Source: Lentisphaerota bacterium | Lineage (GTDB): Bacteria; Verrucomicrobiota; Lentisphaeria; Victivallales; Victivallaceae | NCBI GenBank assembly: GCA_015061865.1 | Contig: SUVU01000011.1 | Location: 1 to 34,940 of the forward strand | Reading direction: 5' to 3' | Length of the DNA stretch: 34,940 nucleotides | Part shown: positions 24,301 through 34,940 of the stretch, one piece after another | Layout: each line of letters starts with the position of its first letter | How positions within the stretch are numbered: position 1 is the first letter of the stretch | Notes under the pieces: generated by a model | The model's input: only the letters and a program-made list of their open reading frames with translations | What the model was told of the DNA's origin: nothing | Databases searched by the model: none | Program-made: the position numbers and the translations under genes

Positions 24301-25544
24301 TGGAGAGCGATCTGCTTGTGCCGGGCGTGCCGCAATTGGTCAAATTTGCCGGTGCGGTCAAAGGTTCGGTCTCACTGCTCAATACACACCGCCGTAAACA
24401 GCTGGATATCGCTGAACGTGACGGCGGCTTTTATCTAACGGTCAACACCAGAGAGTGTACCCCCCATCTGCTCCGGGTGCTTTACACCGAAACCCTGGGA
24501 TTCCGCGGCGAAAAAGTGACCCGGACGGCGTTGGAATATCTGGAAGCCGGCGAGGGACTGCGGGTCGATGTGATGCTCCGGGATGCGATCGTGCGGAAAT
24601 TTTCCGGTGTCAACGGCTTCACCCAGAATATCACGCTGACCAACTGCTCTGCCCAGGCGCAGAAAATCCGTATTTCAGCAGAACTGCCGGAGGGCGTGGA
24701 ACTGCTGCCGGTCAAAGAATTCACTTTGAAACCCAATGAACCGCAGGTCGTCAAACTTCAATTCAAAGCGGTACTGCCGCCGGTTGATAAAGTTTATCCC
24801 TGCCGGATCCTCACTCACTACTCCGACGTTGCCGATGCCGCCGTGCCGGTGGAATTCAAACTGCGCAATTATGTTGCAGATTTGAAACCGGTCGTCAATG
24901 GCGGCAAAGTTTCCGGCAGATCCAACCGGATGCGGGACGACGGCGGCATGGTCTGTTATGTCGGCAGTGACCGCAAAATTTCGTTCCGGATCATCGGCGT
25001 GAATACTCCGGTATTCAAAACCAAAACCTACGAATGGACGCTGTTTGACCGCAATATGCAGGAACTCAACCGGGGCAAAGGCAATTTTGATTCCGGTGAA
25101 AAACAGACCGTGACGATAAATGTTCCGGAACCGGGAGTTTACTTCGTGCGGCTCAAATCCAGTTTCTTCTTTGTCCAAATGCTCACCCCGCAAAGCTACG
25201 GCTTTATGGCTACGGAAAACGAACCTTTCCATGCCTCCGGCACCAACCGGAACGTCGATTGCTACTTCCATGTCAGCAACGGGGAGTCATTCTACTTCTG
25301 CGCCCAGGACGGCGGCAAAACCGAACCCGCACAAGTCATTATTACCGATCCGTCCGGCAAAGTCGTTTTTGAACGCAACGGCAACTTCTCCAAATCAGAG
25401 AAAATCAATATCCCCGTCGCTCCGCAATTCCGGGATAAAGTCTGGAAACTGTACGTCGCACCCGTCGATGACTTCGCATTCCATCTGGGCGGCAGCGCCG
25501 CCGAATATATCGCCACTGAACCGGAGTGTACTCTGAAAAAGTGA
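21366..25544 (+). CDS. Large secreted glycoside-hydrolase-like protein (DUF6259-like barrel)
   Basis: 1392 residues with a signal peptide (MKKLFAALAVVTASLLTAA, cleavage about 19). Residues 20-290 look like a beta-sandwich of the kind that precedes GH barrels (FVFDPDNGCSLREIRNKETGK). About 320-640 reads as a (beta/alpha)8 barrel: AIHWPRYTSVKFDHN, YVCACMWDQDIPSYK, WMNPASPLWRKEYADL, SQYMDVLACGG (about 465) and TTEGFTEGYIDL (about 517). Acidic residues at the ends of these strands (Asp in QYMDV, Glu in TTEGF) are candidates for catalysis. About 660-1392 is a chain of beta-rich, Ig-like segments, with a final GVYFVRLKSSFFFVQ-type domain. The barrel recalls DUF6259-type proteins, whose substrates are not known to me. 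It has its own promoter and no operon partner; the hairpin mosaic follows it. Function as a polysaccharide-active enzyme is inference. Confidence 0.72.
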   Translation: MKKLFAALAVVTASLLTAADLTVENKFTAFVFDPDNGCSLREIRNKETGKSIVFAASAPLWQAELLTGENTVAIAAPAAVKTRLSRVSGGQLLTANWKLKGKNPVTAEMKFFLPDSGALAEADFAITTAGRKAPWVDNVVFPVCGGIRSFQDDYLIVPYYYGQLIRNPGKGRQRSSYLHHPGSWSMQMVAFFGSDTAVAPTAADGTEITGYLRGTAADETGFILACDDEKNFYKELRIDKNPQLPGTFDIRTSHYPALPGWPAVKAKMNGRFSYKMPYKVKIGTFSGGVGKAAAVYRDIVKDHHALRLGKLDDPANPISSKIKNLAYWGKHYHGANRVLPDTLRMWKFFRAPTAIHWPRYTSVKFDHNNLDYHPLLAEFETGVRTLRQLGIVTAPYVCACMWDQDIPSYKRKNMAAAATRDRHGAPYLWPIAEANNAWMNPASPLWRKEYADLTIKLQGQWQTDSQYMDVLACGGKLCYDPVLKTIGGGNYWAAGNRKMLQDIRKRQSKLEKHLSLTTEGFTEGYIDLIDAYLILDITRYAWTGDIGKEFFPFFAYVYHDYAIAYGSDVRSTMPADMIRWQMGLSWQAGIQPCMMGSYFRESRVTDRFNREIIHARHRAAAKFLNRGRGLEVAQVPDLKFAGKSAIAAAASSHQVAEPAEKCISQFSLWKGPAVLTSAWQASDNSIGVTMVNISGKAQQLKLQFAPDRLPANAGNILWRSWPLPVKKLGNISDNKVLDLAFNADQAMVIELRDDTPPEITPLLPVSASFAVPDKDGNFPAVVNDTGSMLGGEEVLAEQSGNGKVRIISPLTFKPVTCIRRDWVNYGVGGPRHEKYRTFYLLNPTGWNFSGKNYKAQVRAVHGIVSMILNVKSAGTLTAPDGTVIYAVSKGNIRTGKGKLELAPGEYFVFGYIPPAGTAPVAGTYKALAELSRQAAANGTALLAGGDELPREQRLQGEYALELGNAAAFVLTGMFIVPQMESDLLVPGVPQLVKFAGAVKGSVSLLNTHRRKQLDIAERDGGFYLTVNTRECTPHLLRVLYTETLGFRGEKVTRTALEYLEAGEGLRVDVMLRDAIVRKFSGVNGFTQNITLTNCSAQAQKIRISAELPEGVELLPVKEFTLKPNEPQVVKLQFKAVLPPVDKVYPCRILTHYSDVADAAVPVEFKLRNYVADLKPVVNGGKVSGRSNRMRDDGGMVCYVGSDRKISFRIIGVNTPVFKTKTYEWTLFDRNMQELNRGKGNFDSGEKQTVTINVPEPGVYFVRLKSSFFFVQMLTPQSYGFMATENEPFHASGTNRNVDCYFHVSNGESFYFCAQDGGKTEPAQVIITDPSGKVVFERNGNFSKSEKINIPVAPQFRDKVWKLYVAPVDDFAFHLGGSAAEYIATEPECTLKK

Positions 25545-25556
25545 TCCGCTGTTGCT

Positions 25557-25824
25557 CCACCATTTTTGCCGAAAGGCAAAAATGGTGAACGAAGCCGCAA
25601 GGCTTCTCTTCACGCCTTTTGCGTCTTGCCGCATCAGCGGCAATCGCAAAAGCTCTTCACTCAAAAACGAAGTTTTTCTTCACATCTTCACCGATTCCAG
25701 GAAGCCTTGCTTGTGAAGTCGTTTCATTACGCTGTCGCTTCATTGCACTTGTGAAGCCGCTCCGCTTGTGAAGTTGCCGCCTTTCGGCGGGAGGATGTGT
25801 TACCTTACAGCGCGGCTTTGCCGC
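25557..25824. repeat. Mosaic of small perfect hairpins and CTTCAC/GTGAAG repeats
   Basis: The first half of the 488-base non-coding gap 25545-26032. Hairpins in order: 25558-25587 (13-bp stem, GAAA loop); 25591-25606 (GAAGCC/GGCTTC, GCAA loop); 25616-25652 (8-bp outer stem CTTTTGCG/CGCAAAAG and 7-bp inner stem TTGCCGC/GCGGCAA, ATCA loop); 25663-25677 (AAAAAC/GTTTTT, GAA loop); 25777-25790 (CCGCC/GGCGG); 25812-25824 (GCGGC/GCCGC). CTTCAC occurs at 25608, 25655, 25678 and 25686. Its complement GTGAAG, each time inside CTTGTGAAG, begins at 25713, 25751 and 25768. No coding frame, transposase or regular spacer is seen. It resembles REP/mosaic intergenic elements. Confidence 0.7.
25558..25587 (+). 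repeat. Perfect 13-bp hairpin with GNRA loop, shared with the tRNA-Val flank
   Basis: CACCATTTTTGCC (25558-25570), GAAA, GGCAAAAATGGTG (25575-25587). It begins 13 bases after the stop codon of the large secreted protein and could end its transcript, though no U-tract follows the stem. The left arm, with one more C at 25557, recurs exactly at 34915-34928. Confidence 0.75.
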
Positions 25825-25965
25825 TTAATTTCTTTTATCTCAAAACTCATTGCGGCAGAGCATTCATCAAGCGGCATTTTTAGCCCAAAATCATCTGATA
25901 TTTTGATTCAACCTGAAATTTCCATAATCCACGCCTGTTTAACGCAAAAAATTTTCCTTTCGCAG

Positions 25966-25994
25966 TTGTAAACGCCTGAGGGAGATGGTATATT
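25966..25994 (+). promoter_or_regulatory. Promoter of the lipoprotein phosphatase operon
   Basis: TTGTAA (25966-25971), 17-base spacer, TATATT (25989-25994). Predicted start near 26001, about 32 bases before the ATG at 26033. Confidence 0.65.
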
Positions 25995-26032
25995 GCCTGT
26001 GAGATGGTTGATTTGAGGTTGGAGGAATGAAT

Positions 26033-26947
26033 ATGAAAAAAATCCAGATTTGCAGTATTCTGTGCAGTTTGATGATCGTTTTCCTCGTTGGGTGCGGTGG
26101 AATTCCTGAATATAATTATATTGGCATGACCAAAGCTGAAGTTGCGGCACATCTGGAAAAACATGCCTTCCGCAGCCGCTGGAGCAGAAACCGGTTTGAC
26201 ATTGCAGTGCCGCGAAGCAAAAATTTTTCTCATTCTTTCCGTAATGCTCAGGAAGTAGCGAAAAATCAATCCGTAATGTCTGCGGATCAATGGAATTGTG
26301 ATTTCTTTCCGCAAAGACATTGGCTTCTGGGATGGGACGGAATTTTTTCTCGCTGGCACAGTTATACCTTGGATTTCAAGAATGGCCGAGTTGCCAGGCA
26401 GCAGAAAAATACCGGATTGCCGTATTGGGTCAGAGGAAATGCCGGACAATCACCCTATCCGAATTATCCGAAAAACTTTCATAAGGTCAATGAAAATCTT
26501 TACCGTTCCGGTCAGCCGGATAAAGATGAATTCTTTTCTCTCTATACATTTAACGGCATTCGCAGCGTGCTGAATTTACGGGAAAACAACAGCGACAAAG
26601 ACGAAATCAATGCAATCAACCGCAATTGGAACAATGCCGTTACTCTGTACGAAATTCCCCTTGATACCGGAAAAATTACCGAAGGTGATCTCTATAAAAT
26701 TTTGACCGTCATCCGGGATGCTCCCAAGCCGCTTCTGATCCACTGCTGGCACGGCAGCGACCGCACCGGATGTGCCGTTGCCGCAAGCCGTATCATCTTT
26801 GAAAATTGGAGCGTGGAAGATGCTGTTTCCGAGTTGATGAAGCCTGAATACGGACATCACAAATACATCTATACCAACATTCCGGAGCTTCTCCGCAAAT
26901 CCGATTGGAAGAAAATCAGGGCAGCCATTTTAAGGAAGGAAAAATAA
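26033..26947 (+). CDS. Lipid-anchored dual-specificity/tyrosine-phosphatase-like protein
   Basis: 304 residues from ATG 26033, which sits 7 bases after GGAGG; an ATG two codons earlier (26027) is only 1 base from that site. A lipoprotein signal ends in FLVGC (lipid Cys21). Residues 26-120 contain YIGMTKAEVAAHLEKH and a later YTLDFKNGRVARQQ strand. These resemble the GMTxxEV and FxxGxV elements of SmpA/BamE lipoproteins. The C-terminal half (about 148-290) is a phosphatase domain: NLYRSGQPDKDEF, GIRSVLNLRE and the P-loop HCWHGSDRTG with Cys238 and Arg244; Asp211 (PLDTGK) may be the general acid. It should act in the periplasm or at the outer membrane. The gene is visibly more A/T-rich than its neighbours and is followed after 2 bases by a secreted protein gene, which suggests an acquired operon. 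Substrate is unknown. Confidence 0.82.
   Translation: MKKIQICSILCSLMIVFLVGCGGIPEYNYIGMTKAEVAAHLEKHAFRSRWSRNRFDIAVPRSKNFSHSFRNAQEVAKNQSVMSADQWNCDFFPQRHWLLGWDGIFSRWHSYTLDFKNGRVARQQKNTGLPYWVRGNAGQSPYPNYPKNFHKVNENLYRSGQPDKDEFFSLYTFNGIRSVLNLRENNSDKDEINAINRNWNNAVTLYEIPLDTGKITEGDLYKILTVIRDAPKPLLIHCWHGSDRTGCAVAASRIIFENWSVEDAVSELMKPEYGHHKYIYTNIPELLRKSDWKKIRAAILRKEK

Positions 26948-34843: not shown

Positions 34844-34940
<97 letters not shown>

Follow-up and report, generated by a model that had tools for sequence, protein, structure and literature searches.

What is the cluster of small, perfect hairpins that lies between a gene encoding a 1392-aa protein and a lipoprotein gene, and not in a 23S rRNA gene, in the window analyzed here (the whole stretch of 34,940 nucleotides from a Lentisphaerota bacterium), and how did it come to be there? 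A preliminary description, made from the letters alone, had proposed a non-autonomous mobile repeat family, an RNA with repeated stem-loops, or a nucleoid or mRNA-end element. Our analysis leads us to favor, with some confidence, a solo copy of an intricately folding, non-autonomous mobile DNA element that has a larger family behind it.

The hairpin block and its copies in the genus

The six hairpins of the block, including those with GAAA and GCAA loops and the compound third one, were all re-found in the window sequence, as were the polarised words, with CTTCAC four times in the left half and GTGAAG three times, always as CTTGTGAAG, in the right half. The absence of a coding frame that would explain the block was also verified, since no gene-sized reading frame accounting for it was found in the window. 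The element is larger than the block first described, as it includes TGCTCCACCA on the left, begins 8 bases past the stop codon of the 1392-aa gene, and has a right part that extends to about position 25881. Its features, and two others of the window that are discussed below, are as follows.

25553–25562, + strand: tRNA 3′-end remnant TGCTCCACCA, 10 nt identical to a tRNA-Ala tail of the genus, in a solo copy away from any tRNA gene
25558–25587, + strand: hairpin 1, the junction hairpin, with a 13-bp stem and a GAAA loop
25591–25606, + strand: hairpin 2, GAAGCC-GCAA-GGCTTC, whose loop and right arm can alternatively pair with 25701–25710
25608–25691, + strand: left half, with CTTCAC at 25608, 25655, 25678, and 25686 and two hairpins in between
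25614–25653, + strand: compound hairpin, between CTTCAC words of the left half
25663–25677, + strand: small hairpin AAAAAC/GTTTTT, between CTTCAC words of the left half
25701–25710, + strand: middle segment GAAGCCTTGC, complementary to 25597–25606, with covariation in 22 aligned copies
25711–25773, + strand: right half, with three CTTGTGAAG words (GTGAAG at 25713, 25751, and 25768) and variable spacers
25777–25799, + strand: terminal hairpin CCGCC-TTTC-GGCGG (25777–25790), then the conserved right-end word AGGATGTG
25812–25881, + strand: right extension, a GCGGC-TTT-GCCGC hairpin (25812–25824) and an AT-rich tract to AAGCGGCATTTTT, common, by eye, to loci L009 and L033
26905–27477, + strand: 190-aa ORF, akin to the protein behind the IVP gene (see below) in array unit L194 (BLASTP, 30% identity, E 1e-13)
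34914–34940, + strand: second junction-hairpin start, CACCATTTTTGCC-TGC-GGCAAAAAT, directly behind tRNA-Val (34844–34920)

The word CTTGTGAAG occurs three times in the window, each time in the block, against 0.17 occurrences expected, and none of 100 shuffles reached three. The fold of the block had a z of −6.8 as RNA and −6.4 as DNA, with no equally good fold among 200 shuffles. No tRNA was found at the position of the block, and no Rfam covariance model matched positions 25000–26500 of the window at E 1 or better. The longest match of TGCTCCACCA to 54 distinct tRNA tails was 10 nt, compared with 4–8 nt for 20 other CCATTTT sites. The window copy has no IVP gene; the 190-aa ORF, which had no match in Pfam, is possibly its former cargo, judging from its similarity to the array protein. 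The window contig ends inside the tRNA-Val junction hairpin, and the contigs of several relatives start or end in such repeats.

Copies of the block were found at eight places in its own genome, and matches were detected in 18 of 40 genomes, namely its own, 16 of 23 additional members of the genus, and one, from another family, of the 16 remaining genomes. The block is therefore not a single-copy sequence. The named relatives with copies are Lentisphaeria MAGs, mostly from ruminant gut. The copies are mosaics in which the hairpin modules between the words are swapped from copy to copy, and the element also occurs solo at about 300 bp.

Target sites in tRNA, tmRNA, and prepilin genes

Analysis of the loci with ARAGORN showed where copies are placed relative to gene ends: most immediately follow the CCA end of a tRNA or tmRNA gene. 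By a strict script, 20 of the 36 fetched loci were recognized as having the block behind a tRNA or tmRNA, which is a tmRNA in L016. In tRNA-borne copies, the left arm of hairpin 1 is formed by the last bases of the tRNA itself and the right arm by TGGNN and AACGAAG. This right arm varies with the tRNA, as a match of at least 5 nt was found in 62% of 21 tRNA-arm pairs versus 4% of 330 swapped pairs, a count in which two upstream tRNA-Glu are included as pairs and the Ser loci L007, L021, and L024, in which the script placed the block start at an inserted AATGAAG, are scored as misses. Copies behind tRNA-His have no target-matched arm. In the own genome, several such insert families were present right after CCA in the 3′ flanks of tRNA genes. 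Further insert families there immediately follow the CCA of Val, Asn, Gln, Glu, and Leu tRNAs (L039, L044, L045, L059, L062, and L064), and for some of these the tRNA tail recurs about 200 bp downstream.

At tRNA-Pro(TGG), the site is empty in genome G022 (L289) and occupied in G001, G008, and G021 (L287, L288, and L290), where the inserts precede the same native flank. The far end of the insert carries a second copy of the 22-nt tRNA-Pro segment TCGACTCCCNCCACCCCGACCA in L288 and in L290, whose contig covers this far end only, and about 12 nt of the repeat are left in L287. Insertion is thus shown by the empty site and by the 22 bp of tRNA 3′ end that recur as direct repeats. Tails starting at the T-loop were also found in Tyr, Gln, and Ser arrays, with a shorter one in Asn. 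Among loci of Clostridia (see below), tRNA tails were found at L272 and L280, and most had no tRNA-tail repeat within the sequence available around them. The 22-bp direct repeat characterizes the best cases and is not claimed to be universal. Copy number, insertion at different tRNAs, tandem arrays, the empty site, and the direct repeats all support the earlier proposal of a non-autonomous mobile repeat family, and we found no support for a nucleoid or mRNA-end element.

A sister form of the element is found mainly in prepilin genes. Of 34 genomes of the genus, 20 contain its junction CTTCACTCAATCAGC when one mismatch is allowed, with a maximum of 42 occurrences in G013, and the reversed pattern gave no match. 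Twenty-three of the 28 distinct junctions examined are in prepilin-like genes, four of these junctions being no more than 110 nt from the end of a contig, and the other five are elsewhere. At 18 prepilin junctions, an upstream copy of the FTLIELLV motif was found, with 17–23 of its 24 bases identical; L316 has enough upstream sequence and no motif duplicate. All 18 testable prepilin inserts (147–279 nt) are in frame, with no stop codon. As in the tRNA-borne copies, the first hairpin of the sister form repeats the end of its target in inverted orientation, and the junction copy of the motif is constant, with a variable upstream copy. In-frame hairpin inserts duplicating the FTLIELLV leader motif were seen in the prepilin genes of L008 and L291–L320, with two inserts in tandem in L299 and L314.

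The IVP gene and the word-hairpin ladder

Full units consist, in this order, of the tRNA 3′ end, the hairpin block, a promoter-like stretch, an IVP gene (PF05635), and often cargo. Behind complete blocks, the promoter-like stretch is followed by a 117-aa frame matching PF05635 (23S_rRNA_IVP, E 7.7e-28); this stretch, with a ribosome-binding site, was recognized by eye at the far end of the block. The protein has a solved relative, 2rld (E 5e-31), with five chains. A five-membered ring of four-helix bundles is reported for the Xanthomonas homologue (PMC4990558, PMC10053308), and the role and spread of IVP/S23 are described as unclear since its discovery in 23S rRNA intervening sequences (IVS) (PMC4990558). 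In 15 IVP loci, tRNA was the only Rfam match. No IVP relatives were found in viral contigs, and a search of open-licence PMC papers returned none in which tRNA genes are linked to IVP or to four-helix bundle proteins.

Tandem units of the form tRNA-HEAD-IVP-cargo-RE-HEAD (HEAD, block; RE, right-end motif) were found at tRNA-Ser in G011, G016, G017, and other genomes, the sequence examined for G016 and G017 excluding the tRNA end. The cargo behind IVP is diverse; 9 of 36 downstream proteins were compared with Pfam. An ATGA overlap of the IVP stop codon with the next gene was present in 17 of 63 loci, with unrelated cargo genes, which suggests precise capture or translational coupling. In L035, L098, and L108, cargo is fused to the first IVP codons (MAESRL or MKKSKLRT, then an unrelated protein).

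Among 493 related loci in named genomes, the top 80 included many from Clostridia and Oscillospiraceae. Seventy-three IVP genes preceded by 350 nt or more of sequence were selected from the top hits of a query that itself came from a tRNA locus, and the following figures are therefore not family-wide rates: a same-strand tRNA ended within 1000 nt upstream of 59 of them and within 450 nt of 53, an upstream tRNA on the opposite strand was found for one, and a tRNA within 1000 nt downstream for none. When all PF05635 matches in five of those Clostridia genomes were considered, 12 of 19 genes had an upstream tRNA; a further gene of this set, L280, has a 21-nt tRNA-Cys tail. In a control sample of 30 PF05635 genes over the phylum, an upstream tRNA was found for only two, both in the genus of the window. 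A general link between PF05635 and tRNA was therefore rejected, and the tRNA link belongs to one IVP subfamily. A same-genus comparison for one Clostridia genome returned that genome as the sole match. PF05635 genes of other lineages with no tRNA link (L348, L350, and L344) are preceded by short repeated words, such as TTAATCGTTATTCGTT, as in the Coxiella IVS.

One could also regard the units as CIME-type cis-mobilizable islands moved in trans by tRNA-targeting tyrosine integrases, in which case the block would be an attP arm and terminator, and IVP would be cargo. Direct repeats from T-loop to CCA are typical of integrase att cores, and those described above resemble them; tandem accretion of the units also fits, as do integrase-like frames, recognized by eye, behind tRNA-Ser in G002, G044, and G005 (L157, L158, and L165). 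However, block and IVP stay associated in two phyla whose blocks have diverged, unlike random cargo, and the sister form aims at a prepilin motif and not at a tRNA, so we consider this explanation possible but rather unlikely. The tRNA-Ser of L157, L158, and L165 is the same tRNA that carries units in other genomes.

The structure of the block was analyzed in a set of 52 blocks. A polarised pair of complementary left and right words was found in 48 of them, a result that no more than 5 of 100 shuffles equalled. The left words were ATGATG (14 blocks), GTGATG (11), CTTCAC (9), CTTCAT (6), ATGAAG (2), GTGAAG (2), and others (8). RTGAWG and its complement CWTCAY cover most of them, and left and right words change together between families. 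Module spread by duplication, rather than pairing, could account for the uniformity of the words. RTGATG also recalls a Box C/D-like motif, a candidate that was rejected as the opposite word is its Watson–Crick complement.

Twenty-five Clostridia blocks of similar length were chosen from this set and aligned. A ladder of word helices with side hairpins paired 82.4% of cells in this alignment, a figure biased toward the ladder over its slid versions since the ladder was drawn on L224, one of the 25 sequences. Two-sided changes were observed in 35 of the 73 ladder pairs, and the covariation score was 0.276, versus 0.109 for shuffled and at most 0.087 for slid versions. RNAalifold alone also paired the words of this alignment. 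In the Lentisphaeria, 22 of 35 matched blocks were aligned, the rest being omitted mainly for length or extra inserts. Pair 8–15 of the local hairpin is C-G in 10 blocks and A-T in 12. A loop base left unpaired by this hairpin covaries with the middle segment (C-G in 16 and T-A in 3 of the 22), which supports the long-range helix; pair 15–128 of this helix is broken in 5 of the 22, all these covariation counts referring to related sequences and not to independent events. Compensatory changes are thus present in the stems, and the ladder may exist as a three-dimensional object. The repeated stem-loops suggested by the preliminary description are supported by the covariation, and their working form may be RNA or single-stranded DNA.

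If the block acted as RNA, it would be a leader or processing element transcribed from the tRNA or IVP promoter, perhaps autoregulating IVP, and would have spread by homologous recombination between tRNA loci. The strong RNA fold and its covariation, the GNRA loops, the promoter-like stretch and ribosome-binding site seen by eye at the block end, and the 17 ATGA overlaps among 63 loci are consistent with such a role. However, the DNA fold is as unusual as the RNA fold, the promoter is at the far end of the block, and the first hairpin of the Clostridia blocks looks like a tRNA terminator, so that little readthrough is expected. An RNA element of this kind is thus unlikely.

Proposed mode of movement and related systems

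At the level of sequence comparison, the mobility of the units, their targets, their structure, and their link with IVP are established. The reading that we prefer on balance is that of a non-autonomous integrative element whose folded block serves as a recognition site for IVP. Units insert behind the CCA of tRNA or tmRNA genes, and the best cases show a direct repeat of about 22 bp from T-loop to CCA. At most of the tRNA loci examined, the second arm of the junction hairpin is the end of the unit's own target, copied in inverted orientation. Alternating words and hairpins come next, the left words complementing the right ones and the stems being held by compensatory changes, as a ladder of short helices with hairpins on both sides. 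Full units add the promoter-like stretch, the PF05635 gene, and often cargo, and accumulate in tandem. The block would act as both recognition and folding site; it is probably bound, as a folded strand, by IVP, and integration may proceed Campbell-style via the one target copy that is carried. Candidates for the joining activity are a tyrosine integrase acting in trans, XerCD, or another enzyme. A recombinase dedicated to the units was rejected, as only two conserved tyrosine recombinases are common to ten genomes and both are XerC/XerD-like by eye.

A broader reading, which we put forward tentatively, is that of a cross-phylum class of mobile elements in which the word-hairpin ladder forms a chain of four-way junctions read by the IVP ring. 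IVP would then direct insertion without a classical transposase, via short homology to a tailored target, either the T-loop-to-CCA segment of tRNAs or the prepilin FTLIELLV motif, and cargo would accrete in arrays behind tRNAs.

According to PMC10053308, PF05635 is homologous to Avd, a four-helix protein of diversity-generating retroelements (DGR). The units might be retro-mobile, with an RNA copy that is reverse-transcribed, IVP acting as Avd, and homing by short homology to the target motif. The 22–24 nt target segments resemble short-homology homing, and the constant junction copy versus the variable upstream copy in prepilin genes agrees with it. However, no reverse transcriptase was found in the own genome (76% complete) nor in six of the nine others searched and, in contrast to DGR, no template/variable repeat pair was seen; reverse transcriptase, present in only 3 of 10 genomes, was rejected as a partner, and we regard retro-mobility as improbable. 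A chance cluster of hairpins is virtually ruled out by the copies, the excess of CTTGTGAAG, the covariation, and the fold.

One IVP subfamily is tied to a covarying nucleic-acid structure and to a defined target in two phyla, and binding and movement are therefore directly testable. Under the broader reading, the IVP/S23 family, long an orphan, would gain a role. The integrative element that we favor, if real, would account for the gene cassettes that follow tRNAs in gut Clostridia and Lentisphaeria, for dozens of in-frame prepilin inserts, and for assembly breaks, since contigs start or end in these repeats. The element hints at a little-known way of moving genes in gut bacteria of two phyla, behind tRNAs and usually with a four-helix IVP.

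Mosaics of small hairpin repeats are also formed by the small dispersed repeats of cyanobacteria, for which we know of no tRNA-end targeting with a protein gene. The nearest kinds are Rickettsia palindromic elements, CIME-type elements, and the 23S IVS, and none of them fits fully. Rickettsia palindromic elements are likewise short palindromes in RNA, in intergenic regions, and in frame in protein genes; by description, the duplicated target motif, the polarised words, and the IVP-bearing relatives set the present elements apart from them. CIME and other tRNA-targeted integrative elements share with our units the insertion at tRNA 3′ ends, the lack of a recombinase of their own, tandem accretion, and flanking direct repeats, found here as the 22-nt repeats of L288 and L290 with the empty site of L289, whereas our units carry a conserved folded block and IVP by the tRNA end and also occur solo at about 300 bp. 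Finally, the 23S rRNA IVS with an S23/IVP gene of Coxiella and Leptospira likewise combine a PF05635 protein, a site in a structural RNA gene, and inverted repeats, but the elements described here target the 3′ ends of tRNA and tmRNA genes, as well as prepilin genes, and are built of a long word-hairpin block and of tandem units with cargo.
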